Of a DNA stretch of 64,000 nucleotides, positions 11,197 through 56,666 are shown piece by piece. The notes beneath the pieces were generated by a model that made no database searches, had not been told where the DNA came from, and saw only the letters and a list, made by a program, of their open reading frames with translations. The stretch is from Brachyhypopomus gauderio (taxonomy: Eukaryota; Chordata; Actinopteri; Gymnotiformes; Hypopomidae). Position numbers and translations under genes: made by a program. The stretch's first letter is position 1, and each line of letters begins with the position of its first letter. The stretch is taken from NCBI RefSeq assembly GCF_052324685.1, contig NW_027506873.1:940001-1004000 (forward strand), in the 5' to 3' direction.

Positions 11197-25004
<13,808 letters not shown>

Positions 25005-33933: not shown

Positions 33934-35583
33934 GTAATGATGTCCATCTATCCAAGTCTGATATAGTTTTGTCAAGCAGAGGAATAAAAATGTCTCCCAG
34001 TAAATCATTAAATGAGTGCGTAAATGTAATGCCCAAATATCTAAATTTTCTATGAGTGACCCTAAAAGGAAAGGAGGATAAGGGAAGCGACTGAGCAGCT
34101 GAATTGACCAAAAATAACTCACTTTTCTGGAGATTCAATTTATAACCGGACACATTACACATAATTGTTGAAGAATAGCCAGTACTGAAGGAAGGGAGGC
34201 GCTGGGGTTAGAAATGTATAAAAGATCATCAGTATATAAACAGAGTTTATGAACAGAATTGAAGCGCGAGATTCCTTCAAAACCCTGATGTTCATACAGC
34301 CATATAGCCAGGGGTTCCAACTGCAAATTGAACAGCAAAGGTGAAAGAGGACAGCCCTGACGTTTTCCACGCTGGAGAGGAAAGGAGGGATAGTGCCGTT
34401 AGAAAGAACAGAAGCGGTTGGAGCCGAATACAAAAGACGGATCCAAGAGATAAACCTAAGGCAGCAGCCAAATTTTTCCAAAGCTAAAAACAAATAGTGC
34501 CATTCCACCCTATCAAAGGCCTTCTCTGCTTCGAGAGAGATGATAACCTCTGGAGAGTCAGAAGGATGAGAGTATAAAATATGCATGTCTATCCTGCATG
34601 TCTATCCTGCATGAAACCAGTTTGATCCTGAGCAATTAAGTCAGGTAGAATCCGCTGAAGACGAGAGGCAAGAACCTTGGCCAGGATCTTAAAATCCACG
34701 CTAAGAAGAGATATCGGTCTGTAGCTAGTGTAGAGGGTGGGGTTTTTGTCCTTTTTGAGTAGAAGTGAAATGGTGACATGAGACATGGATGTGGGTAGAA
34801 GACCAATGAGAAGTGAGTCATTATATACCCTTGCCAAAACAGGAGTGAGAAAAGAGGAAAATTCTTTATAAAATTCTATTGTAAACCCATCTGGGCCAGG
34901 GGATTTACCAGAATTCAAAGACTTTTGGAGTAGTGATGTGGGAACCCATGTCGTCAATTTGGGAAGGCGAAGCCTGGGGAAATGGCAAAGAATCAAAAAT
35001 AGTGGGAGCTCTGAGTAAGAGGACGTGACTCTGAAGCATACAGGTTAGTGTAGAAGTCTGTGAAAATTTGGTTAACTAACTTAGGGTCAGAAACCACATC
35101 ACCAGAGGGAGATCTGATTCTAGGAATCAATCTAGAAGCTCCATTGGACCAAACCTGATGGGCAAGAAGCTTCCCAGCCTTGTCACCCTGTTCATAAAAG
35201 CGTAGCTTGGACTGTCTTAATTGTACTTCAACCTTCCGGGTCATTAAACCCTCGACTCTTGAGTGAAGACGCCGTTTATAAAGCGAGGGAGACGCATACC
35301 GCATAATCAGTCTCCAGTTTACGCAGTTCCTCCAAAATCTCTGACAATCTCAGTCTCTCAGTCCTCCGTGAGTGAGAGACAAATGAAATAATTTGACCAC
35401 GAATATATGCTTTAAAGGCCTCCCAAAGAGAGTGGATGTTGACCTTGGGGGAGTCGTTACATGAGAAATAAAGATCTATACGAGGGATGATGTATACTTT
35501 TTAAAGTCGTTATCAGATAACATGTATGAGCAGAATTTCCAGTGCTTGTGGTCAGGTCTGCTAATAGGAACACATAAGTAAAT

Positions 35584-36011
35584 CAGGGTACCCGTGGGTC
35601 CTTAAAAAGTCTTAAAATGTCTTAAATTTAGTTTTCCATATTCAAGGCCTAAAATGTCTTAAAATGTCTGGAATTTTATGAGGGGAGGCATTAAATTATT
35701 ATAAGTGTGTGTTGTTCAGTTGTTCTGGCGCGATGTGAACTTTGCCGAATCTAGCGCTAGGACCATGCAGAAAATAACCGCTCCAGGGTCCTAGTGCTAG
35801 ATTCCTAGCGTTGGCGTATACGGCCTCAACAACGTATGTCAACAACTCTCCCCCGTCAACAATTCTCGTTCGCGCCCCCCCCCCCCCCCCCCCCCGTCAA
35901 CGATGTGGAACACACCTGCATCCACAGTAATAGTATTATTTTTTCTTGTGAGAGGTATTAAAAAGGTCTTAAGTCATTGAATTTGAGATTTTAAAATGTG
36001 CAGATACCCTG
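35584..36011. mobile_element. hAT-like MITE inside the L1 (CAGGGTACCCGT ends)
   Basis: 428 bp with ends CAGGGTACCCGTGGG and TGTGCAGATACCCTG and 'gtcttaaaatgtcttaaatt' subrepeats. A C run of about 20 lies at 35876-35895. The flanks gtaaat and gtcaat are similar but no exact 8 bp duplication remains. Confidence 0.75.
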
Positions 36012-38289
36012 GTCAATGGATGTGGGGGCTTGGTCAGAAACAATAATTGGGTGATAGGAGGATGAAGAGACATGTGAGAGCAATTTATTGTCCAATAGGA
36101 AAAAAAATCAACCCTGGAGTAGGTATGATGTACAGCTGAAAAAAAGGAAAAGGCTCTGTCTACCGGGTGACTGACTCTCCATGGATCGGACAGACCAAGT
36201 TGAGATGACTACTTTAAAACCCGATTGGAGAACTTGGACAAGACTGATTGCTTAGGGGAGGATCTATCTAGCCATATGTCCTGTACCAGATTAAAATCGC
36301 CCCCAATAACAATATGATGAGTATCTAAATTGAGAAGGCTAAAAGAATTTATCAAAAAAATTTGTATCGCCCCATGTGGGTGCATAGACACAAGCTAATG
36401 TCACCAAGAGGCCCTGCAGTATGCCAGTGACCACCACAAAATGACCGTTAGGGTCTAAGGTTAGGGTTAGTATAGTATAGTATAAAAATAGTATTCGCCG
36501 GTTCAAAGTTGATATTTTTCTGGATAATTAAGTCCCCCTTGCTCGAATTGAATATCTTGAATGAAAAATATGACCCATCCAGGGTTTTTTAATACGCTGG
36601 ATTTCTGAGGATTTAAGATGGGTTTCTTGTAAGAAGATTATATCGGCCTGTAGCTGTTGTAATTGAGAAAACACCATACCCAATTTCACTGTGTTGTTTA
36701 AACCATTGACATTCCAGGAGATCAAGTGCAAAGAGTTAGCTCTGGTCATAACATGGTTCTAAAGAGAAAGGTTCAATGCACAGGCAAGAGAGGAGATAAG
36801 GAGAGATAAAAAAAACCACAATATAAAAAATAAGAAGAAAATAAAGGGAGAGCATACCAACTAACATCACATACATACAGACCACACACAATCCCCACCC
36901 CATTATGGTCCACTGGGCTAAACGCTGAGGCCCTAAACTCCTCAGCACGCCTACGACTCGGCCTCCAGCACAAGCATTCACATTATAACAGAAACTGCGC
37001 CAGAAGGCACATTCATATATCCCCTAAATATTGAAAAAATAGAACAGTGTTGAAGCGAACGAACCCATCGGTAGGACAATACTGTGAATAATGGAACTCA
37101 AAGCAGTTCCAATGGATGCTGCAGCAATCCAGTAGCCACCAATCCTCCAAGCCGGTTTTAACAGTTATGCTGAGAAGTGACAGTTTGTCTGGATTTTAGA
37201 AAGTTCTCAGCTTCCGCGACAGAGTTAAATTTTTTCTCGCTACCGCTTGGTGATGAGACGAAAAGCCTAGCAGGAAACCGAAGTGCCGGTCGTTGACTGG
37301 ACTCGTACAAACGCCGCATCACATCTCTGTATTCGGCTGCTCCAGGATCTCCGGAGCATAATCCTCGTAGATTGCAACTGGATGGCCATGATACTGCAAA
37401 TTACCTCTTCTGGAGCGAGCTGCACAGATAATGTTATCCTTAATTTGGTAATAATGCAGCCTAATAATAACAGACCTTGGTCTGCCACCCTGTTGCGGCT
37501 TACTGACCAGAGACTGATGTGCTCTATTTGATGGTGGCGAGGAGAGCACATCACCCAAAACCTCCGATAAAAATTCGGAGAAAAAGGCAGTGGGGCGTGG
37601 ACCCTCCATAGATTCAGGCACACCAATTACACGGATATTATTGTGTCTGCTGCGGGACTCCAAGTCAGTGACTTTAGCTTGTAGTTTAACTTTAGCCTCT
37701 TTTAGCTACGCGCATACCACCTCCAGCGTCTGGACCTGTTCCAGCGAATTAGAGCTGATTTCTAGAGAAGAAATCTTTTGCCCGTGATCAGACACCGTGA
37801 GCTGCAATTGATCCATTTGGGTCTCCAGAACAGCGAGAGCAAGTGTGTGATCTGCACAAATAGCGCTGCGGTGTTCCTCCAGCAACTTAGTTAGCAGCAC
37901 AACGCTAACTTGTTGGTCAGGGGTGTCATGTACCACAGATTTGGCAGCTAGCTCCTCCTTTCCTTGTTTAACCGACTTGGAAGCCATTATCATATGAAAT
38001 ACGATGTCCAACGCGAGTAAGTACACGTTCAAAGAATATTGAGCAATAGAGACGTTCGGATCGGATGGGATTAAAGTGCAGGGGAAAAAAGTGCCGGAGA
38101 CCGAGTGTAAAGCGTTCCACTCATCTGCCATCTTGAAACCCCCCGACTTCAGTCAAGTTGGATTCACGATCGCATATTTGGAATTCTTTCTTCAATACCT
38201 TTAAGTTAAAAGTGCCAAAATATGCAAATTCTTATTTCTGGCAACCAAGACAAACATCAACAACTTTTTTTACGTCAGGACTAGATGTA

Positions 38290-41200
38290 TTTAAAATTTA
38301 AAATCTAACCTCTGAACTAAAGAGCCCATATATCATTATTGGTATCGGTATCGCAACGAAACTGAAAAACACTGGATCGACCCATCACTACTGAAAACAG
38401 GACTTTGGACCACTGAGCAACAGTCCAGTTCTTTTTCTACTTGGCCCAGGTAAGATGCTTCTTGAGTTGTCTCTTTGTCATGAGTGGCTTGACACAAGAA
38501 GTGCGATAGTTGTAGCCCATGTCCTGGATACATCTGTGTGCGATGGCTCTTGAAGCACTGACTCCAGCAGCAGTTCACTCCTTGAGAATCTCCTCCAAAT
38601 TTTTAAATGGCCTTTTATTGACAATCCTTTCAACTTTCCATTAATATGCTTGGATATAGTACTCTGTGAACAGCCAGCTTCTTTAGCAATGACCTTTTGT
38701 GGCATACTCTCCTTGTGGAGTGTCAATGACTGCCTTCTCGACATCTGTCTAATTAGTGTAATTTTCTGAGATAATGACTTTTGGGTTTTCATTGGGTGTA
38801 AACCATAATCAACATTAACAGAAATGAACACTTGAAATACATCACTCTGTCATGAATCTACATAATATATGCGTCTCACTTTTTGTTTAGAAATACTGAA
38901 ATTAAATTAAATTTATTGCGATGCACCTGTGTGTGTGTGTGTGTGTGTACATAAACATAAATGATATTATGTTTACGTTGCTAATGTTAATTTTTCAATG
39001 GTTTGTGCAGATGAATGTAGATTTCCCTGAGGCAGTTTCGGAGAGTGAAATTGAGACGCAGAATGAAAATGGAACATTATCGTTCTCGGAGTTCTCCTCA
39101 TCTGTACGAGCCGTGGTTCGAATTCGTCAGAAGTACCTGGCAATGAAAAAGAGGCGCCTGGAGCTTTTGTCCACAGCAGTTCCTTTCTGCACCTCTGCAC
39201 GTTCCACCAGCCCCAAGATCTTCACGTTTGACGGGGTAGCAGAAGGCAGCACAGTCACGTCATGCAGGAAGAAGAAGAAGAAGAAGGGTCGTATCCTCTT
39301 TCCCAGCGGAAACCGCCGAGTCATGCCCACCAAGGAGCGCAACCGTGCCAAGAACTGTCTGGTCCTGCTATGCATCATCGTCTTCTTGCAGGTCTACAAT
39401 GCCATTGAAAACCTAGATGACCATGTGCTTAAATATGATTTGGAAGGACTTGAGAAGACCCTTAAAAGGGAGGTATTTGGACAGCAAGAGGCAAGTGAGG
39501 GCCTCTTAGGACATTTAAAAGATTACTTGTCGACGTATGTGCACAGTAAACCTTTGGTATTGTCTCTTCTGGGACCCAGCGGTGTGGGGAAAAGCCACCT
39601 TGGGAGGCTCCTAGCCCAGCACTTCCGCTCCGTGGTGGGCGAGCACCTGGTCCTGCAGTACTTTGTGCTTCACCACTGTCCCACAAAAGGAGACCTCCCA
39701 CTCTGCATCCAAACTCTGACCTCCCACATTTCTGAAATGGTCTCCCTGGCTGAGGAAGAGGAGAAAATCCCCATCTTCATCTTCGATGAAATGGAGCACA
39801 TGCCCCCCGAGCTGCTCGACACCGTGCACGGACTCATCGTCAAACGAGACAGCAACGAATACCTGAATGCAATCTACATCCTAATCAGCAACCTTGATCA
39901 CGGAGAGATCACAAAGTTCGTCTTGCAGAACTCCTCCAGCATTGCTGCTTCAGGACGAGGGCGCTTCAGCAAGGAGCTGAACCCTCTGTTGCTTGGGCAC
40001 CTAAAAAAGCACCATGCCCTCTGGCTGGAGGCAGAGCTATTGCCCCTTACACTCCTAGAGAAAAGCCATGTGATGGAATGCTTTATGGATGAGATGTCCA
40101 GGGAAGGATTCTACCCAGACCGCTCCCATGTAGAAAGACTAACAGAGGAGCTGTCATACTATTCTGTGGGAGATCGGGAGTTTTCCCGTACTGGATGTAA
40201 ACAGGTGGTGGCGAAAGTGAATCTTCTGTGAAAACGGAGAGGGAGATTATTGAAGTTGTGCTAGACTGAGGTTTGTTAATAAGGAGAGGAACACAATCAG
40301 CCCAGGTCAGTGCTGCAGGAAGATACTAACATGGTCCATGGTTATTTTTGCAGTTATAATGAGATCTTAAGATCTCTCCGGGTTATATTTTTTCAACATT
40401 TTAAAATTGGAATATGTGAAATGGTTCTGCATCTTTTCACACACAGTGTTATATGCTTTGTTGTGTTTACTTTGGGGTGTAGTTTGTTGTAACTGGTAAA
40501 CCTTTGCATGGATGGCATTGTATACTTGAGCATGATTGCATATTGCAAGAGAAACTAGGTCAGTTCAGATGAGGAGGACCACAGTAGCAATGCAGACATT
40601 TCCCTTACAAAGAACATCGAATGAAACTGAACTGCAGTGGACCTACCAAGTCCTCAAGAAGTACTGGGTGAGCAAAATAATTGTAATTTACACAAGCAGT
40701 GAAGAGGAAAAACTATGACGTGAATTTAATTTTTTTTTTTATTTATACATTTTGAAGGATGTCCGTTTTATAACTCTGAAACCACAGCACAGTGTTCTCC
40801 TCCCCCATAGAAACGGCACCAAAGTTGTTTGCCTCTTTACAGTTGAACCTCTCCATTATATTGGTACAAGGTTATTACAAATTCTAAAGCTTTAGTCATC
40901 TCTGCCTTTTTTTTCTGAAAACCATCTGGTCTGTATATCTGATGATGATCAGTTCCTTTAAGTGCTCTGTGTATCATAATCCTATTCTTCTGAAAACAGC
41001 TCTCTGGGCCTCCGTATTAAGATGCCAAAAGTAGAAAAGTGGTGATAGGAGTTCAGGTTTCAGCAAACATGTCAGTAATGCATTAACAGTAGGAATTTAT
41101 AATACTTTAATACTGATACACTGTCTCAACATGTACACTTGGTATATATTGGGGACTGGATAGTACAAGGGATATTCCAAAAAAAGTCTTCACAAATAGT

Positions 41201-41968
41201 GACATTATATTAACATTTCATATTTAATGCAAGTTTATGTAAATGACTTATCAGGCACATCAGGAAATTACCTACATTCAATGGAGCTCCTTTTAAATTT
41301 GGGTATCGTTATAAACTGAATAAAGGTGACAGCATTTTTTGTGGGGGAAACCACCACCAACTTTGTCTTTATTTATTATCATTTGTGAGCTATTGCTGAA
41401 AACATGAAGTAATATGTACAAACAAATCAAGCATCTCCACTTCATAGTAAAATTAGTGTAACAATAATGCTTTGCAAAACACATTGAAATTGATCAAATT
41501 CAACTCAAAAGTAACTCATGATGTTCAATAGCTGCTTGTGTTTCCACGTTTATTGCAGAATGCTGGTGGGAGTCAGTGATGGTTCATAAGCTAGTGTTCT
41601 GTACCTATGTACCACATGAGAGGCGAGAGAGGTTTCCCTGTCGATATGTAATGTGCCATTGAGCAGGAAAAAAATATTTGTGGTTAAGCACACTACTGCC
41701 ATTGAATGCTTCATAATCTCATCATAGTGCATTTCAGTCTATTTGTACTATTGTAGTGTATTCCATTGATTTCATATTCATTGCTGCACCGTTCCTCCGT
41801 TAATAATTATGGTATATTGTCTGATGGTGGATTTTCATCTTTAATTATGTCTCTGACGGGGGTGTAGGAGAAGCAGAAATAGAGCACATAGTGTAGGACC
41901 TGAGTGTGGTGTCTCATTCCAAGAAGAGACTTATGCTTCGACTTCAAAGCCTAGTCCAACCTTATGCT
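38290..41968 (+). repeat. Tandem unit 1 of 4 (tor4a array), 3679 bp
   Basis: The unit holds, in order: the last 101 bp of the hAT element, the right half of the Tc1-like element, a (GT)n tract, the tor4a coding exon, the tor4a 3' region and, on minus, the last 38 coding bases and 3' region of vdac3 (41931-41968). It is shorter than units 3 and 4 by 10 bp: one AAG in the coding exon and a 7 bp filler (tttaaat) that exists only at junctions between units. Confidence 0.95.
39011..40231 (+). CDS. tor4a: Torsin-4A, copy 1 (406 aa)
   Basis: Single coding exon; the acceptor TTTGTGCAG ends right before ATG (MNVDFPEAVS). Frames extending upstream into the CVCVCV repeat are not coding. The order matches vertebrate TOR4A: basic cytosolic N-terminus with a lysine run (6 here), a membrane anchor at about 116-132 (CLVLLCIIVFLQVYNAI), then a torsin AAA+ domain in the ER lumen. 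Walker A is GPSGVGKS (188-195), Walker B IPIFIFDEME (253-262), with ENLDDHVLKYDLEGLEKTL before them and the C-terminal GCKQV (395-399) typical of torsins. TOR4A is the least-studied torsin; torsins are weak ATPases that need LAP1/LULL1 as activators. The ending is VVAKVNLL. AATAAA at 41319-41324 is a likely poly-A signal. Confidence 0.93.
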   Translation: MNVDFPEAVSESEIETQNENGTLSFSEFSSSVRAVVRIRQKYLAMKKRRLELLSTAVPFCTSARSTSPKIFTFDGVAEGSTVTSCRKKKKKKGRILFPSGNRRVMPTKERNRAKNCLVLLCIIVFLQVYNAIENLDDHVLKYDLEGLEKTLKREVFGQQEASEGLLGHLKDYLSTYVHSKPLVLSLLGPSGVGKSHLGRLLAQHFRSVVGEHLVLQYFVLHHCPTKGDLPLCIQTLTSHISEMVSLAEEEEKIPIFIFDEMEHMPPELLDTVHGLIVKRDSNEYLNAIYILISNLDHGEITKFVLQNSSSIAASGRGRFSKELNPLLLGHLKKHHALWLEAELLPLTLLEKSHVMECFMDEMSREGFYPDRSHVERLTEELSYYSVGDREFSRTGCKQVVAKVNLL

Positions 41969-42438
41969 TTTAAATTTTAAAATTTAAAATCTAACCTCTG
42001 AACTAAAGAGCCCATATATCATTATTGGTATCGGTATCGCAACGAAACTGAAAAACACTGGATCGACCCATCACTACTGAAAACAGGACTTTGGACCACT
42101 GAGCAACAGTCCAGTTCTTTTTCTACTTGGCCCAGGTAAGATGCTTCTTGAGTTGTCTCTTTGTCATGAGTGGCTTGACACAAGAAGTGCGATAGTTGTA
42201 GCCCATGTCCTGGATACATCTGTGTGCGATGGCTCTTGAAGCACTGACTCCAGCAGCAGTTCACTCCTTGAGAATCTCCTCCAAATTTTTAAATGGCCTT
42301 TTATTGACAATCCTTTCAACTTTCCATTAATATGCTTGGATATAGTACTCTGTGAACAGCCAGCTTCTTTAGCAATGACCTTTTGTGGCATACTCTCCTT
42401 GTGGAGTGTCAATGACTGCCTTCTCGACATCTGTCTAA

Positions 42439-42929
42439 AGCCTGCTTTATACCTCCGGACACGGACGAATTTCGTCCGTCCGTACCAAACGTAGCCTCCG
42501 TAGGGGGCCACTATACCTCTTTCCGTTTCCAACGTTGTTATGATTTTTTTTAATACATCCTCTAGAGGGCAGTATAGTCAAATTTCCGGCACCAGCGCAC
42601 CAGCAATCTCCTCCCAGCTGTTTTTGCATCGCTGTTTATCGCGATGACCTGGCACCGTAGCAGAATGTAGCCTCTAACCAACTCGCAAAGTTTCTCTTCT
42701 AACTCGAGCGTCATTTTTTAAAGTCCAGTACTCTTCTTCATTGATTTTCCCGAATTGGTGTACGCCCGATGCTTCTGACTCTCTACTGCCCCCTGATTTG
42801 CGGATTATATTGCTCCGTTACTACGGATTCGTAAGCGCTCTGGCAACGGACCCACTGACGGATGAAACGACCTCCGGAACCGGACGAAAGGGTCCGTATC
42901 CGTAATTACCGTAGGGTGTGAATGGGCCT
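42439..42929. mobile_element. Harbinger-type MITE present only in tandem unit 2
   Basis: 491 bp inserted in the sequence gtctaattag with TAA duplicated (42436-42438, 42930-42932). The ends AGCCTGCTTTATACC and GGGTGTGAATGGGCCT are imperfectly inverted, with 'cggacacggacg' and its inverse nearby. The 3 bp TAA target points to PIF/Harbinger. Units 1, 3 and 4 have the empty site. Confidence 0.85.
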
Positions 42930-43190
42930 TAATTAGTGTAATTTTCTGAGATAATGACTTTTGGGTTTTCATTGGGTGTAAACCATAATCAACATTAACA
43001 GAAATGAACACTTGAAATACATCACTCTGTCATGAATCTACATAATATATGCGTCTCACTTTTTGTTTAGAAATACTGAAATTAAATTAAATTTATTGCG
43101 ATGCACCTGTGTGTGTGTGTGTGTGTGTACATAAACATAAATGATATTATGTTTACGTTGCTAATGTTAATTTTTCAATGGTTTGTGCAG

Positions 43191-44414
43191 ATGAATGTAG
43201 ATTTCCCTGAGGCAGTTTCGGAGAGTGAAATTGAGACGCAGAATGAAAATGGAACATTATCGTTCTCGGAGTTCTCCTCATCTGTACGAGCCGTGGTTCG
43301 AATTCGTCAGAAGTACCTGGCAATGAAAAAGAGGCGCCTGGAGCTTTTGTCCACAGCAGTTCCTTTCTGCACCTCTGCACGTTCCACCAGCCCCAAGATC
43401 TTCACGTTTGACGGGGTAGCAGAAGGCAGCACAGTCACGTCATGCAGGAAGAAGAAGAAGAAGAAGAAGGGTCGTATCCTCTTTCCCAGCGGAAACCGCC
43501 GAGTCATGCCCACCAAGGAGCGCAACCGTGCCAAGAACTGTCTGGTCCTGCTATGCATCATCGTCTTCTTGCAGGTCTACAATGCCATTGAAAACCTAGA
43601 TGACCATGTGCTTAAATATGATTTGGAAGGACTTGAGAAGACCCTTAAAAGGGAGGTATTTGGACAGCAAGAGGCAAGTGAGGGCCTCTTAGGACATTTA
43701 AAAGATTACTTGTCGACGTATGTGCACAGTAAACCTTTGGTATTGTCTCTTCTGGGACCCAGCGGTGTGGGGAAAAGCCACCTTGGGAGGCTCCTAGCCC
43801 AGCACTTCCGCTCCGTGGTGGGCGAGCACCTGGTCCTGCAGTACTTTGTGCTTCACCACTGTCCCACAAAAGGAGACCTCCCACTCTGCATCCAAACTCT
43901 GACCTCCCACATTTCTGAAATGGTCTCTCTGGCTGAGGAAGAGGAGAAAATCCCCATCTTCATCTTCGATGAAATGGAGCACATGCCCCCCGAGCTGCTC
44001 GACACCGTGCACGGACTCATCGTCAAACGAGACAGCAACGAATACCTGAATGCAATCTACATCCTAATCAGCAACCTTGATCACGGAGAGATCACAAAGT
44101 TCGTCTTGCAGAACTCCTCCAGCATTGCTGCTTCAGGACGAGGGCGCTTCAGCAAGGAGCTGAACCCTCTGTTGCTTGGGCACCTAAAAAAGCACCATGC
44201 CCTCTGGCTGGAGGCAGAGCTATTGCCCCTTACACTCCTAGAGAAAAGCCATGTGATGGAATGCTTTATGGATGAGATGTCCAGGGAAGGATTCTACCCA
44301 GACCGCTCCCATGTAGAAAGACTAACAGAGGAGCTGTCATACTATTCTGTGGGAGATCGGGAGTTTTCCCGTACTGGATGTAAACAGGTGGTGCCGAAAG
44401 TGAATCTTCTGTGA
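43191..44414 (+). CDS. tor4a: Torsin-4A, copy 2 (407 aa)
   Basis: Same protein as copy 1 with two differences seen by eye: one extra lysine in the run (7) and proline for alanine near the end (VVPKVNLL). A silent change (gtctctctgg for gtctccctgg) lies near 43925. Walker A is at 189-196, Walker B around D260-E261, C397 in GCK. The acceptor before the ATG is unchanged. The nearest upstream sequence is half a Tc1 element with the Harbinger MITE, not a promoter I can recognise. Confidence 0.92.
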   Translation: MNVDFPEAVSESEIETQNENGTLSFSEFSSSVRAVVRIRQKYLAMKKRRLELLSTAVPFCTSARSTSPKIFTFDGVAEGSTVTSCRKKKKKKKGRILFPSGNRRVMPTKERNRAKNCLVLLCIIVFLQVYNAIENLDDHVLKYDLEGLEKTLKREVFGQQEASEGLLGHLKDYLSTYVHSKPLVLSLLGPSGVGKSHLGRLLAQHFRSVVGEHLVLQYFVLHHCPTKGDLPLCIQTLTSHISEMVSLAEEEEKIPIFIFDEMEHMPPELLDTVHGLIVKRDSNEYLNAIYILISNLDHGEITKFVLQNSSSIAASGRGRFSKELNPLLLGHLKKHHALWLEAELLPLTLLEKSHVMECFMDEMSREGFYPDRSHVERLTEELSYYSVGDREFSRTGCKQVVPKVNLL

Positions 44415-46151
44415 AAACGGAGAGGGAGATTATTGAAGTTGTGCTAGACTGAGGTTTGTTAATAAGGAGAGGAACACAATCAGCCCAGGTCAGTGCTGCA
44501 GGAAGATACTAACATGGTCCATGGTTATTTTTGCAGTTATAATGAGATCTTAAGATCTCTCCGGGTTATATTTTTTCAACATTTTAAAATTGGAATATGT
44601 GAAATGGTTCTGCATCTTTTCACACACAGTGTTATATGCTTTGTTGTGTTTACTTTGGGGTGTAGTTTGTTGTAACTGGTAAACCTTTGCATGGATGGCA
44701 TTGTATACTTGAGCATGATTGCATATTGCAAGAGAAACTAGGTCAGTTCAGATGAGGAGGACCACAGTAGCAATGCAGACATTTCCCTTACAAAGAACAT
44801 CGAATGAAACTGAACTGCAGTGGACCTACCAAGTCCTCAAGAAGTACTGGGTGAGCAAAATAATTGTAATTTACACAAGCAGTGAAGAGGAAAAACTATG
44901 ACGTGAATTTAATTTTTTTTTTTATTTATACATTTTGAAGGATGTCCGTTTTATAACTCTGAAACCACAGCACAGTGTTCTCCTCCCCCATAGAAACGGC
45001 ACCAAAGTTGTTTGCCTCTTTACAGTTGAACCTCTCCATTATATTGGTACAAGGTTATTACAAATTCTAAAGCTTTAGTCATCTCTGCCTTTTTTTTCTG
45101 AAAACCATCTGGTCTGTATATCTGATGATGATCAGTTCCTTTAAGTGCTCTGTGTATCATAATCCTATTCTTCTGAAAACAGCTCTCTGGGCCTCCGTAT
45201 TAAGATGCCAAAAGTAGAAAAGTGGTGATAGGAGTTCAGGTTTCAGCAAACATGTCAGTAATGCATTAACAGTAGGAATTTATAATACTTTAATACTGAT
45301 ACACTGTCTCAACATGTACACTTGGTATATATTGGGGACTGGATAGTACAAGGGATATTCCAAAAAAAGTCTTCACAAATAGTGACATTATATTAACATT
45401 TCATATTTAATGCAAGTTTATGTAAATGACTTATCAGGCACATCAGGAAATTACCTACATTCAATGGAGCTCCTTTTAAATTTGGGTATCGTTATAAACT
45501 GAATAAAGGTGACAGCATTTTTTGTGGGGGAAACCACCACCAACTTTGTCTTTATTTATTATCATTTGTGAGCTATTGCTGAAAACATGAAGTAATATGT
45601 ACAAACAAATCAAGCATCTCCACTTCATAGTAAAATTAGTGTAACAATAATGCTTTGCAAAACACATTGAAATTGATCAAATTCAACTCAAAAGTAACTC
45701 ATGATGTTCAATAGCTGCTTGTGTTTCCACGTTTATTGCAGAATGCTGGTGGGAGTCAGTGATGGTTCATAAGCTAGTGTTCTGTACCTATGTACCACAT
45801 GAGAGGCGAGAGAGGTTTCCCTGTCGATATGTAATGTGCCATTGAGCAGGAAAAAAATATTTGTGGTTAAGCACACTACTGCCATTGAATGCTTCATAAT
45901 CTCATCATAGTGCATTTCAGTCTATTTGTACTATTGTAGTGTATTCCATTGATTTCATATTCATTGCTGCACCGTTCCTCCGTTAATAATTATGGTATAT
46001 TGTCTGATGGTGGATTTTCATCTTTAATTATGTCTCTGACGGGGGTGTAGGAGAAGCAGAAATAGAGCACATAGTGTAGGACCTGAGTGTGGTGTCTCAT
46101 TCCAAGAAGAGACTTATGCTTCGACTTCAAAGCCTAGTCCAACCTTATGCT

Positions 46152-49100
46152 TTTAAATTTTAAAATTTAAAATCTAACCTCTGAACTAAAGAGCCCATAT
46201 ATCATTATTGGTATCGGTATCGCAACGAAACTGAAAAACACTGGATCGACCCATCACTACTGAAAACAGGACTTTGGACCACTGAGCAACAGTCCAGTTC
46301 TTTTTCTACTTGGCCCAGGTAAGATGCTTCTTGAGTTGTCTCTTTGTCATGAGTGGCTTGACACAAGAAGTGCGATAGTTGTAGCCCATGTCCTGGATAC
46401 ATCTGTGTGCGATGGCTCTTGAAGCACTGACTCCAGCAGCAGTTCACTCCTTGAGAATCTCCTCCAAATTTTTAAATGGCCTTTTATTGACAATCCTTTC
46501 AACTTTCCATTAATATGCTTGGATATAGTACTCTGTGAACAGCCAGCTTCTTTAGCAATGACCTTTTGTGGCATACTCTCCTTGTGGAGTGTCAATGACT
46601 GCCTTCTCGACATCTGTCTAATTAGTGTAATTTTCTGAGATAATGACTTTTGGGTTTTCATTGGGTGTAAACCATAATCAACATTAACAGAAATGAACAC
46701 TTGAAATACATCACTCTGTCATGAATCTACATAATATATGCGTCTCACTTTTTGTTTAGAAATACTGAAATTAAATTAAATTTATTGCGATGCACCTGTG
46801 TGTGTGTGTGTGTGTGTACATAAACATAAATGATATTATGTTTACGTTGCTAATGTTAATTTTTCAATGGTTTGTGCAGATGAATGTAGATTTCCCTGAG
46901 GCAGTTTCGGAGAGTGAAATTGAGACGCAGAATGAAAATGGAACATTATCGTTCTCGGAGTTCTCCTCATCTGTACGAGCCGTGGTTCGAATTCGTCAGA
47001 AGTACCTGGCAATGAAAAAGAGGCGCCTGGAGCTTTTGTCCACAGCAGTTCCTTTCTGCACCTCTGCACGTTCCACCAGCCCCAAGATCTTCACGTTTGA
47101 CGGGGTAGCAGAAGGCAGCACAGTCACGTCATGCAGGAAGAAGAAGAAGAAGAAGAAGGGTCGTATCCTCTTTCCCAGCGGAAACCGCCGAGTCATGCCC
47201 ACCAAGGAGCGCAACCGTGCCAAGAACTGTCTGGTCCTGCTATGCATCATCGTCTTCTTGCAGGTCTACAATGCCATTGAAAACCTAGATGACCATGTGC
47301 TTAAATATGATTTGGAAGGACTTGAGAAGACCCTTAAAAGGGAGGTATTTGGACAGCAAGAGGCAAGTGAGGGCCTCTTAGGACATTTAAAAGATTACTT
47401 GTCGACGTATGTGCACAGTAAACCTTTGGTATTGTCTCTTCTGGGACCCAGCGGTGTGGGGAAAAGCCACCTTGGGAGGCTCCTAGCCCAGCACTTCCGC
47501 TCCGTGGTGGGCGAGCACCTGGTCCTGCAGTACTTTGTGCTTCACCACTGTCCCACAAAAGGAGACCTCCCACTCTGCATCCAAACTCTGACCTCCCACA
47601 TTTCTGAAATGGTCTCCCTGGCTGAGGAAGAGGAGAAAATCCCCATCTTCATCTTCGATGAAATGGAGCACATGCCCCCCGAGCTGCTCGACACCGTGCA
47701 CGGACTCATCGTCAAACGAGACAGCAACGAATACCTGAATGCAATCTACATCCTAATCAGCAACCTTGATCACGGAGAGATCACAAAGTTCGTCTTGCAG
47801 AACTCCTCCAGCATTGCTGCTTCAGGACGAGGGCGCTTCAGCAAGGAGCTGAACCCTCTGTTGCTTGGGCACCTAAAAAAGCACCATGCCCTCTGGCTGG
47901 AGGCAGAGCTATTGCCCCTTACACTCCTAGAGAAAAGCCATGTGATGGAATGCTTTATGGATGAGATGTCCAGGGAAGGATTCTACCCAGACCGCTCCCA
48001 TGTAGAAAGACTAACAGAGGAGCTGTCATACTATTCTGTGGGAGATCGGGAGTTTTCCCGTACTGGATGTAAACAGGTGGTGCCGAAAGTGAATCTTCTG
48101 TGAAAACGGAGAGGGAGATTATTGAAGTTGTGCTAGACTGAGGTTTGTTAATAAGGAGAGGAACACAATCAGCCCAGGTCAGTGCTGCAGGAAGATACTA
48201 ACATGGTCCATGGTTATTTTTGCAGTTATAATGAGATCTTAAGATCTCTCCGGGTTATATTTTTTCAACATTTTAAAATTGGAATATGTGAAATGGTTCT
48301 GCATCTTTTCACACACAGTGTTATATGCTTTGTTGTGTTTACTTTGGGGTGTAGTTTGTTGTAACTGGTAAACCTTTGCATGGATGGCATTGTATACTTG
48401 AGCATGATTGCATATTGCAAGAGAAACTAGGTCAGTTCAGATGAGGAGGACCACAGTAGCAATGCAGACATTTCCCTTACAAAGAACATCGAATGAAACT
48501 GAACTGCAGTGGACCTACCAAGTCCTCAAGAAGTACTGGGTGAGCAAAATAATTGTAATTTACACAAGCAGTGAAGAGGAAAAACTATGACGTGAATTTA
48601 ATTTTTTTTTTTATTTATACATTTTGAAGGATGTCCGTTTTATAACTCTGAAACCACAGCACAGTGTTCTCCTCCCCCATAGAAACGGCACCAAAGTTGT
48701 TTGCCTCTTTACAGTTGAACCTCTCCATTATATTGGTACAAGGTTATTACAAATTCTAAAGCTTTAGTCATCTCTGCCTTTTTTTTCTGAAAACCATCTG
48801 GTCTGTATATCTGATGATGATCAGTTCCTTTAAGTGCTCTGTGTATCATAATCCTATTCTTCTGAAAACAGCTCTCTGGGCCTCCGTATTAAGATGCCAA
48901 AAGTAGAAAAGTGGTGATAGGAGTTCAGGTTTCAGCAAACATGTCAGTAATGCATTAACAGTAGGAATTTATAATACTTTAATACTGATACACTGTCTCA
49001 ACATGTACACTTGGTATATATTGGGGACTGGATAGTACAAGGGATATTCCAAAAAAAGTCTTCACAAATAGTGACATTATATTAACATTTCATATTTAAT

Positions 49101-49840
49101 GCAAGTTTATGTAAATGACTTATCAGGCACATCAGGAAATTACCTACATTCAATGGAGCTCCTTTTAAATTTGGGTATCGTTATAAACTGAATAAAGGTG
49201 ACAGCATTTTTTGTGGGGGAAACCACCACCAACTTTGTCTTTATTTATTATCATTTGTGAGCTATTGCTGAAAACATGAAGTAATATGTACAAACAAATC
49301 AAGCATCTCCACTTCATAGTAAAATTAGTGTAACAATAATGCTTTGCAAAACACATTGAAATTGATCAAATTCAACTCAAAAGTAACTCATGATGTTCAA
49401 TAGCTGCTTGTGTTTCCACGTTTATTGCAGAATGCTGGTGGGAGTCAGTGATGGTTCATAAGCTAGTGTTCTGTACCTATGTACCACATGAGAGGCGAGA
49501 GAGGTTTCCCTGTCGATATGTAATGTGCCATTGAGCAGGAAAAAAATATTTGTGGTTAAGCACACTACTGCCATTGAATGCTTCATAATCTCATCATAGT
49601 GCATTTCAGTCTATTTGTACTATTGTAGTGTATTCCATTGATTTCATATTCATTGCTGCACCGTTCCTCCGTTAATAATTATGGTATATTGTCTGATGGT
49701 GGATTTTCATCTTTAATTATGTCTCTGACGGGGGTGTAGGAGAAGCAGAAATAGAGCACATAGTGTAGGACCTGAGTGTGGTGTCTCATTCCAAGAAGAG
49801 ACTTATGCTTCGACTTCAAAGCCTAGTCCAACCTTATGCT
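46152..49840 (+). repeat. Tandem unit 3 of 4, 3689 bp
   Basis: Begins with the same 7 bp filler (46152-46158), then the hAT end (46159-46259), Tc1 half and tor4a exon, and ends with the vdac3 tail (49803-49840). Exactly the same length as unit 4. Confidence 0.95.
46880..48103 (+). CDS. tor4a: Torsin-4A, copy 3 (407 aa)
   Basis: Predicted protein identical to copy 2, including VVPKVNLL and the seven-lysine run. The nucleotide sequence has the common gtctccctgg at the site where copy 2 differs. All torsin motifs are intact and the splice acceptor is preserved. Confidence 0.92.
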   Translation: MNVDFPEAVSESEIETQNENGTLSFSEFSSSVRAVVRIRQKYLAMKKRRLELLSTAVPFCTSARSTSPKIFTFDGVAEGSTVTSCRKKKKKKKGRILFPSGNRRVMPTKERNRAKNCLVLLCIIVFLQVYNAIENLDDHVLKYDLEGLEKTLKREVFGQQEASEGLLGHLKDYLSTYVHSKPLVLSLLGPSGVGKSHLGRLLAQHFRSVVGEHLVLQYFVLHHCPTKGDLPLCIQTLTSHISEMVSLAEEEEKIPIFIFDEMEHMPPELLDTVHGLIVKRDSNEYLNAIYILISNLDHGEITKFVLQNSSSIAASGRGRFSKELNPLLLGHLKKHHALWLEAELLPLTLLEKSHVMECFMDEMSREGFYPDRSHVERLTEELSYYSVGDREFSRTGCKQVVPKVNLL

Positions 49841-52800
49841 TTTAAATTTTAAAATTTAAAATCTAACCTCTGAACTAAAGAGCCCATATATCATTATTGG
49901 TATCGGTATCGCAACGAAACTGAAAAACACTGGATCGACCCATCACTACTGAAAACAGGACTTTGGACCACTGAGCAACAGTCCAGTTCTTTTTCTACTT
50001 GGCCCAGGTAAGATGCTTCTTGAGTTGTCTCTTTGTCATGAGTGGCTTGACACAAGAAGTGCGATAGTTGTAGCCCATGTCCTGGATACATCTGTGTGCG
50101 ATGGCTCTTGAAGCACTGACTCCAGCAGCAGTTCACTCCTTGAGAATCTCCTCCAAATTTTTAAATGGCCTTTTATTGACAATCCTTTCAACTTTCCATT
50201 AATATGCTTGGATATAGTACTCTGTGAACAGCCAGCTTCTTTAGCAATGACCTTTTGTGGCATACTCTCCTTGTGGAGTGTCAATGACTGCCTTCTCGAC
50301 ATCTGTCTAATTAGTGTAATTTTCTGAGATAATGACTTTTGGGTTTTCATTGGGTGTAAACCATAATCAACATTAACAGAAATGAACACTTGAAATACAT
50401 CACTCTGTCATGAATCTACATAATATATGCGTCTCACTTTTTGTTTAGAAATACTGAAATTAAATTAAATTTATTGCGATGCACCTGTGTGTGTGTGTGT
50501 GTGTGTACATAAACATAAATGATATTATGTTTACGTTGCTAATGTTAATTTTTCAATGGTTTGTGCAGATGAATGTAGATTTCCCTGAGGCAGTTTCGGA
50601 GAGTGAAATTGAGACGCAGAATGAAAATGGAACATTATCGTTCTCGGAGTTCTCCTCATCTGTACGAGCCGTGGTTCGAATTCGTCAGAAGTACCTGGCA
50701 ATGAAAAAGAGGCGCCTGGAGCTTTTGTCCACAGCAGTTCCTTTCTGCACCTCTGCACGTTCCACCAGCCCCAAGATCTTCACGTTTGACGGGGTAGCAG
50801 AAGGCAGCACAGTCACGTCATGCAGGAAGAAGAAGAAGAAGAAGAAGGGTCGTATCCTCTTTCCCAGCGGAAACCGCCGAGTCATGCCCACCAAGGAGCG
50901 CAACCGTGCCAAGAACTGTCTGGTCCTGCTATGCATCATCGTCTTCTTGCAGGTCTACAATGCCATTGAAAACCTAGATGACCATGTGCTTAAATATGAT
51001 TTGGAAGGACTTGAGAAGACCCTTAAAAGGGAGGTATTTGGACAGCAAGAGGCAAGTGAGGGCCTCTTAGGACATTTAAAAGATTACTTGTCGACGTATG
51101 TGCACAGTAAACCTTTGGTATTGTCTCTTCTGGGACCCAGCGGTGTGGGGAAAAGCCACCTTGGGAGGCTCCTAGCCCAGCACTTCCGCTCCGTGGTGGG
51201 CGAGCACCTGGTCCTGCAGTACTTTGTGCTTCACCACTGTCCCACAAAAGGAGACCTCCCACTCTGCATCCAAACTCTGACCTCCCACATTTCTGAAATG
51301 GTCTCCCTGGCTGAGGAAGAGGAGAAAATCCCCATCTTCATCTTCGATGAAATGGAGCACATGCCCCCCGAGCTGCTCGACACCGTGCACGGACTCATCG
51401 TCAAACGAGACAGCAACGAATACCTGAATGCAATCTACATCCTAATCAGCAACCTTGATCACGGAGAGATCACAAAGTTCGTCTTGCAGAACTCCTCCAG
51501 CATTGCTGCTTCAGGACGAGGGCGCTTCAGCAAGGAGCTGAACCCTCTGTTGCTTGGGCACCTAAAAAAGCACCATGCCCTCTGGCTGGAGGCAGAGCTA
51601 TTGCCCCTTACACTCCTAGAGAAAAGCCATGTGATGGAATGCTTTATGGATGAGATGTCCAGGGAAGGATTCTACCCAGACCGCTCCCATGTAGAAAGAC
51701 TAACAGAGGAGCTGTCATACTATTCTGTGGGAGATCGGGAGTTTTCCCGTACTGGATGTAAACAGGTGGTGGCGAAAGTGAATCTTCTGTGAAAACGGAG
51801 AGGGAGATTATTGAAGTTGTGCTAGACTGAGGTTTGTTAATAAGGAGAGGAACACAATCAGCCCAGGTCAGTGCTGCAGGAAGATACTAACATGGTCCAT
51901 GGTTATTTTTGCAGTTATAATGAGATCTTAAGATCTCTCCGGGTTATATTTTTTCAACATTTTAAAATTGGAATATGTGAAATGGTTCTGCATCTTTTCA
52001 CACACAGTGTTATATGCTTTGTTGTGTTTACTTTGGGGTGTAGTTTGTTGTAACTGGTAAACCTTTGCATGGATGGCATTGTATACTTGAGCATGATTGC
52101 ATATTGCAAGAGAAACTAGGTCAGTTCAGATGAGGAGGACCACAGTAGCAATGCAGACATTTCCCTTACAAAGAACATCGAATGAAACTGAACTGCAGTG
52201 GACCTACCAAGTCCTCAAGAAGTACTGGGTGAGCAAAATAATTGTAATTTACACAAGCAGTGAAGAGGAAAAACTATGACGTGAATTTAATTTTTTTTTT
52301 TATTTATACATTTTGAAGGATGTCCGTTTTATAACTCTGAAACCACAGCACAGTGTTCTCCTCCCCCATAGAAACGGCACCAAAGTTGTTTGCCTCTTTA
52401 CAGTTGAACCTCTCCATTATATTGGTACAAGGTTATTACAAATTCTAAAGCTTTAGTCATCTCTGCCTTTTTTTTCTGAAAACCATCTGGTCTGTATATC
52501 TGATGATGATCAGTTCCTTTAAGTGCTCTGTGTATCATAATCCTATTCTTCTGAAAACAGCTCTCTGGGCCTCCGTATTAAGATGCCAAAAGTAGAAAAG
52601 TGGTGATAGGAGTTCAGGTTTCAGCAAACATGTCAGTAATGCATTAACAGTAGGAATTTATAATACTTTAATACTGATACACTGTCTCAACATGTACACT
52701 TGGTATATATTGGGGACTGGATAGTACAAGGGATATTCCAAAAAAAGTCTTCACAAATAGTGACATTATATTAACATTTCATATTTAATGCAAGTTTATG

Positions 52801-53529
52801 TAAATGACTTATCAGGCACATCAGGAAATTACCTACATTCAATGGAGCTCCTTTTAAATTTGGGTATCGTTATAAACTGAATAAAGGTGACAGCATTTTT
52901 TGTGGGGGAAACCACCACCAACTTTGTCTTTATTTATTATCATTTGTGAGCTATTGCTGAAAACATGAAGTAATATGTACAAACAAATCAAGCATCTCCA
53001 CTTCATAGTAAAATTAGTGTAACAATAATGCTTTGCAAAACACATTGAAATTGATCAAATTCAACTCAAAAGTAACTCATGATGTTCAATAGCTGCTTGT
53101 GTTTCCACGTTTATTGCAGAATGCTGGTGGGAGTCAGTGATGGTTCATAAGCTAGTGTTCTGTACCTATGTACCACATGAGAGGCGAGAGAGGTTTCCCT
53201 GTCGATATGTAATGTGCCATTGAGCAGGAAAAAAATATTTGTGGTTAAGCACACTACTGCCATTGAATGCTTCATAATCTCATCATAGTGCATTTCAGTC
53301 TATTTGTACTATTGTAGTGTATTCCATTGATTTCATATTCATTGCTGCACCGTTCCTCCGTTAATAATTATGGTATATTGTCTGATGGTGGATTTTCATC
53401 TTTAATTATGTCTCTGACGGGGGTGTAGGAGAAGCAGAAATAGAGCACATAGTGTAGGACCTGAGTGTGGTGTCTCATTCCAAGAAGAGACTTATGCTTC
53501 GACTTCAAAGCCTAGTCCAACCTTATGCT
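49841..53529 (+). repeat. Tandem unit 4 of 4, 3689 bp, joined to the real vdac3 exon
   Basis: Begins with the filler tttaaat and ends at 53529, where the sequence continues without interruption into the rest of the vdac3 terminal exon (53530-53583). This unit therefore keeps the ancestral right-hand junction, as unit 1 keeps the ancestral left-hand one. Confidence 0.95.
50569..51792 (+). CDS. tor4a: Torsin-4A, copy 4 (407 aa)
   Basis: Seven lysines like copies 2 and 3, but the alanine of copy 1 near the C-terminus (VVAKVNLL). All motifs are intact. Its 3' region is shared with vdac3: AATAAA on plus at 52880-52885 lies some 50 bp from AATAAA on minus (within 52929-52938), so the two convergent transcripts end next to each other. 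Confidence 0.92.
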   Translation: MNVDFPEAVSESEIETQNENGTLSFSEFSSSVRAVVRIRQKYLAMKKRRLELLSTAVPFCTSARSTSPKIFTFDGVAEGSTVTSCRKKKKKKKGRILFPSGNRRVMPTKERNRAKNCLVLLCIIVFLQVYNAIENLDDHVLKYDLEGLEKTLKREVFGQQEASEGLLGHLKDYLSTYVHSKPLVLSLLGPSGVGKSHLGRLLAQHFRSVVGEHLVLQYFVLHHCPTKGDLPLCIQTLTSHISEMVSLAEEEEKIPIFIFDEMEHMPPELLDTVHGLIVKRDSNEYLNAIYILISNLDHGEITKFVLQNSSSIAASGRGRFSKELNPLLLGHLKKHHALWLEAELLPLTLLEKSHVMECFMDEMSREGFYPDRSHVERLTEELSYYSVGDREFSRTGCKQVVAKVNLL

Positions 53530-56500
53530 CCCCGGCGCTGATATTCTTGCCGTCTATGAGCGCGGAGAGCGTGAGTTTCACTCCTGAACAAAGGTGAGAG
53601 CAAGGAGCACAGTCAGGCTGAGCACAGAGCTGGTACAATTATGCTAAACTCACAAATGCAACTTGCAAAGTATAGCCAAAAAACCAAGATCAAGTACAAT
53701 GATGAAAACTACATAAGAGCAGCCAGAAGCCTTCACCTGGTCGCAGCCACTGAGTGTAACCAATCCCAAGCAAGCTGGTGTTGTTCACCTTTGCCTGGAA
53801 GTGCAAAAATAAGACAAGCTGTCAGGCTCCTGTGCAGTGCTAATGATGCTTATTACCCTTCATCATGTAATGTCACTCCAGTGCCAGAGCAACATATGGA
53901 AGTTGTCTTGGTGGATACAAGTGAAAATTGCATTTCTTTAAAAGACTCACTTCAGTGCGTCAGGAAACACTTTCAGCATTCAGAGACAATTAGCTTTTTT
54001 GACAGCATGTTTGTCAATGCTTGATTTCAGTATGTACATCTGTGCCAAAATGACCCACACACTTCCATAGCACAGACTTTCAAAAATGTGACATGCCCGT
54101 ATTGACTGAATCTCCAATATAGCAACATAATGACTGGACTATTAATTTAGTGTCGTACTGAAACCTGACAAAGATCCAAACATTTAAGTATCTCACAGTT
54201 TACCAGGACTGGTATTGCATGCCCTGACAATCATAATCTGCTCATCTTTGACAGAGAACCTGATCAGTACTCTAGATTAAAGAAATGATCAGTACTCTAG
54301 ATTAAAGAAATGTATATTTGCTTCATGTTTGTTTGTTTTGCCCCATGAAATGTTTAAGTTTTAAATGCGACTGGAAGACAGCTAAAGTATCTAGCTATAA
54401 CTAATATAGCTGTTTTTATGCTTAACTACATCTATAAGACATGACTTGACATTAGTAATTTTAAAACCAATCACAGTTCTAGTCCTTGAAGCCTTTGACC
54501 CACCACTTCATCGCTGCTCCGTCACCCAAATAAGAGAAACCAAAACATGGTAATACTATAATGTAATCCTGTTAACTCACAGACAAAGAGGAATCCTCGT
54601 CTAGCTGGTACTTGGCACCAATGCCAAAGTGCGTGTTGTTGCTGCCTGCTGTCCAGGCCAGAGTGACTGCAGTCTGCAACTGCTCACTGATCTTCTGGTA
54701 TACAGAGCCTCCAAACTCAGTCCCATCATTTCTGGGTGAAACAAGACAAGTGTGTTCATGCATAATAACCAATTATATAATCACTCAATATTGGGGCATT
54801 TAAAAGTCTATAAAAATGCCAGTATTGAAAAGTAAATATGGCTGGTTAGCATGACCTTACTTGCATAACTAACCACTGATAAGCTAATAGAGGCTAGTTA
54901 GCATTATTGTATTTGCATAATTAGCCATTGCCAGCTTTGACCTATGGGCTTGGCTTTTCTCTACCTAGTTTGCTGATGAGGTCATCCACATTGTGACAGT
55001 GGCACATTTATTACCAGTCCTGGACACTTACACACTGGTGTGAAGCTCATAATCTCCATCCTTATAGCTCAGTGCAAAGTTATTCTGTACAAGTGTGGAC
55101 TTGGCGGTGTCAAACGCCATCTGGTAGCCCGCCAGCCAGCCCTCGTAACCCAAGACGGCAGCAGAGTGCAATACTGGGCCGTCAAAGTCAACGTCACAGG
55201 ACAGGTTGAGGTAATCCCGCTTATAGCCTGTCTTCAGTTTGCCAGTCTTCTTTCTGTTGCAACAGACAGGGTGTTTTGTACTTCACAATATTATACAGAA
55301 ACATCTAAGAGACACTCTGCTGGTGATTTTCGCCACTCACCCCGTGTTTGGTACAAAGGAAGTGTCAAAAGCAACTTTCAAGCCCTTTGCCAGCTGAAAA
55401 AAGAATAGATATCTATTGGAGCTAATTTAATCACTGAATGGATCTGTAATGGATCTAATGGATTTTAGAGACTGATTAGACATTTAGGACAAGCACTTCT
55501 GACCTGGTCCTCCACAGAGAGCTCAGTAGCCAAGGTATTGTCAGTGTTCCACTTCTGATTGAGGCAGAGCCCCAGCTCCGTCATTTTGAACTTGGTCTCC
55601 AAGCTCCCAGAGGCCCTGCCAGTGTTGGTATTAGTAGAGCCAGAGGTGTTGAACTCCTGTGGTCAATTATAAAAGAGCATTTCAGGAGTAGATAAAAAAT
55701 AATGCAAAACATGGAACTGTTGGCACAACAAGACTTTGCAAGTCATTGTGGGTGTATGTGCATCTCACATGCAACAACTCTTGCACTGATGTTACCATCA
55801 CACCCAACACACTGCAGGAAAGGTCATGAAAGCAGTTAACCCAAGAAGAGACAGATACCCCGCAGATTAAATTTAATAACTAAGCTTGTCAAAACTACCA
55901 TAAATGTGAATTAATTTACAAAAAAAAGTTTATCTGAACAAAAACTGATTGTCTAGCTACATCATGCGACTATACAGCTTATAATACTCCTTTTTAGTCT
56001 GCATTATTTTGGCTGGCTTGCCTTATTTTGACTAGAATAATTTGTTTATTTGATCACATGATTCAGATAAAAAACATCCAATATGTACTCTGACACTATT
56101 TAACTGTTCAGGATGCTCACAGCCCAAAAAATAAATAATCCTGTGATTTGCTTGACAACTAATTTGCTTATGGCTGCATTTTGCAATATCAGTATTGCAC
56201 ATATATTAACCAATAACCACATCATGCACCTCCTGATTTACAACATTTCTGAACATAGAATAGTTAGCGGTGACATTATCCTTCGTACTTAACATCTTTC
56301 ACAAAAGGATGATGTTGTAATGCTGTGAAGAATGAGATCAGCCCACCTCTCTTGGGCAGCTGACAGGTGTAAAAGACCCTAGCAGCAACAGTACACAGGT
56401 AAGGACAAAGAAATTATTAATTACTCACCACTCCACTTTGTGATTTAGTCTTGAGGTCCAACTTTACGATTCCAAAGCCTGTAAATAAACCCAAAATGTG

Positions 56501-56666
56501 AAACAAGGCCAGAAAAGCTAATGCACAAGGTGCAACATTTTCCCTGAGAGCCAGAACACGATAAGGGCTACATTAAAGCCTCCTGTGGGCAGCACCTACC
56601 ATAGCCCTTGCTGAAGATATCATGTGCTGCTTTGCCCAGGTCCGAGTATGAAGGAGGAACCGCCAT
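53492..56666 (-). CDS. vdac3: Voltage-dependent anion channel, VDAC3-like (complete CDS)
   Basis: Coding exons on minus: 56666-56600, 56478-56429, 55656-55504, 55393-55341, 55253-55032, 54731-54581, 53794-53737, 53583-53492 (TAA). They give 281 residues, close to the usual 283. Start [20 protein letters not shown] (N-terminal helix), then the 19-strand beta-barrel; VDAC hallmarks are [57 protein letters not shown] and [23 protein letters not shown] and FVPNTGKK favour VDAC3 over VDAC1/2, but the paralogue call is from memory. It forms the main metabolite pore of the outer mitochondrial membrane. A 5' untranslated exon probably ends with the donor TTG|GTATGC at 57797, and an acceptor lies five bases before the ATG. 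The last exon straddles the edge of the tor4a array (53529/53530). Confidence 0.92.
54263..54313 (+). repeat. Two-copy tandem repeat in a vdac3 intron
   Basis: A 26 bp unit starting gatcagtactctagattaaa is present twice head to tail. Short and otherwise unremarkable. Confidence 0.85.

Follow-up and report, generated by a model that had tools for sequence, protein, structure and literature searches.

A probable, very young tandem array of partial tor4a gene copies beside vdac in the electric fish Brachyhypopomus gauderio

Introduction

In a 64,000-nucleotide stretch of the genome of the electric fish Brachyhypopomus gauderio (NCBI RefSeq assembly GCF_052324685.1, contig NW_027506873.1, positions 940,001 to 1,004,000 of the forward strand), referred to here as the window, the coding-exon segment of the torsin-4A gene tor4a is present in four head-to-tail copies. 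Among the closest described systems is the MYH3C array of stickleback, for which the available parts of a preprint (PMC12776057) set out a two-step scheme. One non-homologous join, with its breakpoint in a neighbouring gene, is common to the surveyed haplotypes of four to six copies, and the middle copies are predicted to be like the last copy on their 5′ side. The tor4a locus is similar in being a tandem array in a fish that would have started from a single join with a neighbour-gene breakpoint and grown later by unequal crossing-over, and its middle copies also resemble the last copy on the 5′ side, a resemblance that here comes down to one site. In contrast, the MYH3C unit of approximately 17.6 kb includes both coding and regulatory regions, was studied with population data and is accompanied by a rise in expression, whereas the tor4a unit is 3.7 kb long, seems to be without a first exon and comes from one assembly.

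The Drosophila Sdic array, as described in the available parts of PMC7475035, also consists of young tandem units. Its arrays are told apart by transposon insertions, its protein variants differ at the 3′ end and its copy number is unreliable in some assemblies, and in all of these respects the tor4a array is alike. Sdic was studied in 20 populations and tested for expression and for an effect on sperm competition, whereas the tor4a array is known from its sequence alone and holds no tor4a-vdac coding chimera. Partial duplicates with an incomplete ancestral gene are frequent among young duplicates in several animals according to the accessible parts of PMC3449122, and the tor4a copies apparently lack the complete ancestral gene as well. 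That review judges truncation by reading frames; in tor4a the whole frame was copied and presumably only the 5′ non-coding exon and the promoter are missing. In the open-access literature searched, no paper on a tor4a array was found by title, and the available passages of PMC7140721 contain nothing on tor4a copy number or gene structure.

Results

Four nearly identical units with identical junctions

When the window was compared with itself by BLAST and the units were aligned by MAFFT, the tor4a coding-exon segment was found to form four head-to-tail copies with a unit size of 3.68-3.69 kb:

38290..41975, plus strand: unit 1 (3686 bp)
41976..46158, plus strand: unit 2 (3689 bp without a 491-bp insert and one copy of a 3-bp duplication)
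46159..49847, plus strand: unit 3 (3689 bp)
49848..53529, plus strand: unit 4 (3682 bp), continuing into the intact vdac gene

Each unit carries one tor4a coding exon, and all four reading frames are open to the stop codon:

39011..40231, plus strand: unit 1 coding exon (406 codons, with a run of seven basic residues and Ala at the residue-402 site)
43191..44414, plus strand: unit 2 coding exon (407 codons, with a run of eight basic residues, Pro402 and the silent T)
46880..48103, plus strand: unit 3 coding exon (407 codons, with a run of eight basic residues and Pro402)
50569..51792, plus strand: unit 4 coding exon (407 codons, with a run of eight basic residues and Ala402)

The exon starts are 4180, 3689 and 3689 bp apart, which confirms an earlier note on this DNA that had reported four complete tor4a coding exons head to tail at these spacings. 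Unit 2 is longer by 494 bp, made up of the insert and one TAA copy. With the insert set aside, the units differ internally at three sites, all inside the coding exon: an AAG codon that unit 1 lacks, a silent C/T change with T in unit 2 only, and a G/C change between Ala and Pro with Pro in units 2 and 3. The earlier note had listed the same one codon-length, one silent and one Ala/Pro change. The sole further difference is that unit 4 is without the final 7 bases, at the point where it leaves the array. The number of substitutions was 2 between units 1 and 2, 1 between units 1 and 3, 0 between units 1 and 4, 1 between units 2 and 3, 2 between units 2 and 4, and 1 between units 3 and 4. A 3.7-kb repeat with 99.9% identity is not of chance origin. 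The clustering of the differences in the coding exon has a chance probability of 0.037 for all three and 0.11 for the two substitutions, and it was not used as evidence. In the protein listing, the cluster of this protein holds four member sequences on one contig; although consistent with four copies, this number probably derives from the same assembly and is not independent.

The edges of the units were defined by the following features:

41969..41975 (units 1/2), 46152-46158 and 49841-49847: junction insert TTTAAAT (7 bp)
41931..41968, 46114-46151 and 49803-49840, minus strand: vdac tail fragment at the ends of units 1 to 3 (two bases, the last 11 codons and the stop)
53492..56666, minus strand: vdac, intact, with eight coding exons, GT-AG borders and 281 amino acids, convergent with tor4a

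The three junctions are identical and read CCTTATGCT, then TTTAAAT, then TTTAAAATTTAAAATC. In the left outer flank a different sequence stands ahead of TTTAAAATTTAAAATC, and in the right outer flank CCTTATGCT runs on into CCCCGGCGC. The right breakpoint (53529/53530) lies inside the last coding exon of vdac on the opposite strand. This gene was identified by a Porin_3 match for one exon, and its protein is 90% identical to an Electrophorus record. The vdac tails of units 1 to 3 are severed from the remaining gene, and no coding chimera of tor4a and vdac was seen in the array. The junction of vdac, TTTAAAT and left edge is present in neither outer flank, and therefore at least one tandem duplication is genuine. 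The claim of the earlier note that at least two loci are genuine is thus more strongly supported than before. Head-to-tail units with identical novel junctions and differing outer flanks are the signature of a young tandem segmental duplication. The TTTAAAT insert resembles the adjoining TTTAAAA, which would fit repair or replication switching with local copying; the MYH3C join, in contrast, has 4-8 bp of microhomology (PMC12776057, available parts).

Identity of the gene and the residue-402 variant

The protein of unit 3 matched the Torsin domain (PF06309, 45.2 bits, cut-off 27) and the TOR1A C-terminal domain (PF21376, 36.7 bits, cut-off 27) above the curated cut-offs. It is 87% identical over 99% of its length to torsin-4A of Electrophorus electricus, its best named relative among the matches listed. 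Homologue counts refer to the 120 rows among the matches listed, which include the protein's own row and leave 119 relatives, and the rows are related to each other. The earlier note had taken TOR4A to be usually a single gene, which is only loosely right in teleosts: the names 'member Aa' and 'member Ab' occur in the teleost torsin-4A listing, and for Megalops cyprinoides the matches listed include two torsin-4A rows, whose contigs differ in size.

By comparison with these relatives, Pro402 is derived, since residue 402 is Ala in 118 of the 119, Gly in one and Pro in none. In the predicted structure of the Pro form (mean pLDDT, the predicted local distance difference test score, 76.4), a short helix at the C-terminus (400-406) has residue 402 in its first turn. 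Proline can be tolerated at such a position, and a damaging effect of Pro402 is for this reason not claimed.

Order of events and age

The units form an unrooted chain, unit 1 - unit 4 - unit 3 - unit 2, without conflict among the three differences and an insertion that resembles a miniature inverted-repeat transposable element (MITE):

42439..42929: MITE-like insert (491 bp), the terminal inverted repeats of which are imperfect, flanked by a TAA duplication (42436-42438 and 42930-42932)

The AAG codon parts unit 1 from the others, Pro402 joins units 2 and 3, and the silent T and the MITE are private to unit 2. Because the insert is absent from units 1, 3 and 4, the MITE insertion is later than the origin of unit 2. 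The earlier note had described both a filler and a MITE in unit 2; the insertion is real but is one TAA-flanked insert and not two separate features. No second copy of it was found elsewhere in the window. We take a PIF/Harbinger-type MITE to be marked by a three-base TWA-type duplication and terminal inverted repeats; the insert has the TAA duplication, and its repeats are imperfect.

In the nearest relatives, a run of seven K/R residues as in unit 1 was found in 20 of the 22 nearest listed rows (P0002-P0023), and the unit 1 spacing between the motifs that flank the basic tract in 19 of them. Judged by these rows, we have moderate confidence that unit 1 is ancestral at the AAG site. If so, the array would have grown from the right-hand copy; otherwise the chain still holds. 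AAG is the sole site that separates unit 1 from unit 4, the middle units show the state of the last unit there, and no 3′ difference between units 1 and 4 exists. These events would fit one initial duplication followed by unequal crossing-over. With the rate assumed to lie between 3e-9 and 1e-8 per site per year, the average divergence of the units translates into approximately 16,000-53,000 years, which is an underestimate if gene conversion has occurred. The near-identity, the identical junctions, the conflict-free order and the presence of the MITE in one copy only all bear out the earlier suggestion of a very recent amplification.

Upstream region and the first exon

The unit holds just 721 bp ahead of the ATG. 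The features of this region and of the 3′ region are as follows:

38404..38886, minus strand: Tc1-like transposon remnant (38761-38886 aligned to a second copy, the rest by eye from broken reading frames)
38450..38455, plus strand: donor-like site CAG/GTAAGA inside the remnant, a possible end of a cryptic first exon
38981..39010, plus strand: splice acceptor with a branch-point-like CTAAT, directly before the ATG of unit 1
41319..41324, plus strand: AATAAA in the tor4a 3′ region of unit 1, with the other units identical there

The remnant, which we take to belong to the Tc1 family, is 88% identical over 126 bases to 28661-28542. The 124 bases from its aligned end to the ATG have a G+C content of 29% and include a GT microsatellite. 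The 40 bases ahead of the ATG are the same in all four units and each unit has the acceptor, the score of which, against a general consensus, exceeds that of 95% of the 4078 AG sites in the window. The CTAAT was recognised by the general branch-point consensus. An antisense signal, TTTATT, is present at 41368. Among the 120 listed rows, the protein starts at the corresponding Met column in 83, has no Met there in 12 and is extended upstream in 25. In 24 of the 25 extended rows the Met is preceded by Q (7), K (13) or E (4), which matches NAG codons at exon/intron ends, and several of the extensions resemble, by eye, translated pyrimidine tracts.

A splice boundary seems to be located directly before the ATG. 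Since only 721 bp, partly of the Tc1 remnant, stand upstream of this boundary in the unit, the ancestral non-coding first exon and the promoter probably lie outside the unit, upstream of 38290. CpG-rich stretches at 29.25-29.75 and 33.5-33.75 kb were considered as a first exon and rejected, because on visual inspection they resemble young transposons. The idea that a second transposon is nested at the unit's left edge was likewise dropped (alignment score 12.5 compared to a shuffle maximum of 14.0 in 200 shuffles).

A long interspersed nuclear element (LINE)-like sequence was observed to end approximately 140 bp left of the array, probably within the tor4a intron:

34138-38152, minus strand: LINE-like element with a reverse transcriptase match at 34592-35044; frames like that of its first open reading frame, ORF1, at 37322-38152 by eye only, with no Pfam match for 37709-38152

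The ancestral tor4a-vdac neighbourhood

In Coilia grayii the tags of torsin-4A and vdac are consecutive (ACEWY4_016497 and ACEWY4_016498), with no annotated gene between them. Contig sizes were compared for 18 species found by eye in both 120-row listings. Among the matches listed, a tor4a row and a vdac row were on contigs of equal size in 8 of the 18 (Silurus meridionalis, Myxocyprinus asiaticus, Coilia grayii, Denticeps clupeoides, Carassius carassius, Xyrauchen texanus, Anguilla anguilla and Anarhichas minor). Because of the consecutive tags and these eight species, the position of tor4a beside vdac is probably old, though not shown in every lineage.

Other features of the window

Repeats and transposons were also observed at a distance from the array:

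6557-7402: minisatellite of 38-bp units, approximately 21 copies, near a naa25-like gene (NatB_MDM20 match at 3891-4211)
13503-15130, plus strand: Tc1-like transposon that may be intact, with 34-bp terminal inverted repeats (33/34 identical) and a 348-codon stop-free frame matching the Sleeping Beauty-type and Tc3-type helix-turn-helix domains and DDE_3
17470-17523, minus strand: UnaL2 LINE 3′ element; nothing else in the window matched Rfam at gathering score
23023-23633: minisatellite with a 47-bp unit, 13 copies and a 97% match

Discussion

The locus is probably best explained as a genuine tandem array of very recent origin, made up of partial tor4a copies, in which unit 1 is expressed and units 2 to 4 are cassettes without the native promoter; we favour this explanation with fair, but not high, confidence. 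It is a duplication of known kind with an unusually legible history. The copied segment of approximately 3.68 kb runs from AT-rich DNA beside the Tc1 remnant, ahead of the tor4a coding exon, into the final coding exon of vdac, with which tor4a is convergent. The first join would have been made once, by error-prone repair or replication switching, the array would then have been enlarged by unequal crossing-over between units, and the MITE would have inserted into unit 2 afterwards. Because only the terminal coding exon (with its acceptor, coding sequence and poly-A signal) and not the ancestral first exon would have been copied, unit 1 would remain the expressed gene. Units 2 to 4 would be used only by read-through with exon skipping, or by a new transposon-derived promoter and first exon.

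Several observations weigh against this explanation. The count of four rests on one assembly, and with units 3 and 4 one base apart it may be inflated. No first exon was located by CpG content or donor score; the best donor between 24.4 and 38.3 kb was 27472, without other support. The donor-like site at 38450, in contrast, ranks approximately 9th of the 3817 plus-strand GT sites in the window when scored against a general consensus, and the four intact frames fit use as well as youth. The Q/K/E pattern ahead of the Met is indirect and comes from rows related to each other, and 4 of the 25 extensions (P0059, P0071, P0074 and P0076) have 2-3 residues with their own Met and may be alignment offsets. 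Over all 119 listed relatives, K/R runs of eight (67) outnumber those of seven (34), and AAG runs slip easily, which weakens the polarity of the AAG site. Contig sizes of the tor4a and vdac rows were unequal in 10 of the 18 listed species (Astyanax mexicanus, Sardina pilchardus, Alosa alosa, Chelmon rostratus, Cololabis saira, Echeneis naucrates, Melanotaenia boesemani, Myripristis murdjan, Oryzias melastigma and Cirrhinus molitorella); in 7 of these 10 the vdac row is named 'protein 3' and is possibly another paralogue.

The number of units could have been inflated by the assembly, such that a real array of two or three units, or differing arrays of the two haplotypes, was written out as four. 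We regard this as unlikely, but it deserves some weight, as units 3 and 4 differ by one base in 3682 and units 2 and 3 by one base and the MITE. According to the available parts of PMC7475035, the Drosophila Sdic array was not faithfully recapitulated by some long-read assemblies. An inflated count fits poorly with the finding that no two units share the same set of states and that these states give a chain free of conflict, in which the two Pro units are neighbours. Supposing that alleles had been written out as units, the probability of at most one difference per unit would be approximately 0.005 at an assumed heterozygosity of 0.2%, but 0.12 at 0.1%, so that a fish of low diversity is still compatible. 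The suggestion of the earlier note that part of the array is an assembly error may thus apply to the exact count, given the single base between units 3 and 4, but not to the existence of at least one duplication.

An amplification that is functional, with four copies transcribed from promoters inside the units (for example, in the Tc1 remnant) and raising either torsin-4A dosage or the range of Ala/Pro variants, appears rather improbable. No frame or acceptor is disrupted in any of the four units, the other units keep the AATAAA seen in unit 1 unchanged, and the high rank of the donor-like site in the Tc1 remnant would offer a first exon. The native first exon, however, is seemingly outside the unit, the 124 bases before the ATG are AT-rich and include the microsatellite, Pro402 in units 2 and 3 alters a position occupied by Ala or Gly in all 119 listed relatives, and, with any two copies just 0-2 differences apart, too little time has passed for selection to show. 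The dosage effects raised in the earlier note are therefore less likely by the anatomy of the duplicated segment, from which first exon and promoter seem to be absent, though still conceivable, and judged from the sequence a simple rise in dosage has probably not occurred. It is very doubtful that a single upstream first exon serves all four acceptors as their splicing partner, with slightly different proteins as the result. Each unit is a cassette of acceptor, coding exon and poly-A signal as this would demand, but transcripts would normally be terminated at the AATAAA of unit 1 and the use of units 2 to 4 would require that unit 1 be skipped. Hardly to be expected, finally, is that the cassettes are self-contained torsin-4A genes, with a first exon ending at the donor-like site of the Tc1 remnant and with Ala402 and Pro402 forms coexisting; if this were true, a 5′ end supplied by a transposon would have made a promoter-less exon amplifiable.

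If the locus is a young array of a partial gene, as we favour, it would be a freshly made one, for which a single sequence is enough to reveal the breakpoints, the junction insert and the likely order of growth. Four genes counted by their reading frames can conceal three that are possibly without a start region. For studies of gene families in electric fish, this means that, without RNA, the array should not be taken as a fourfold torsin dosage.

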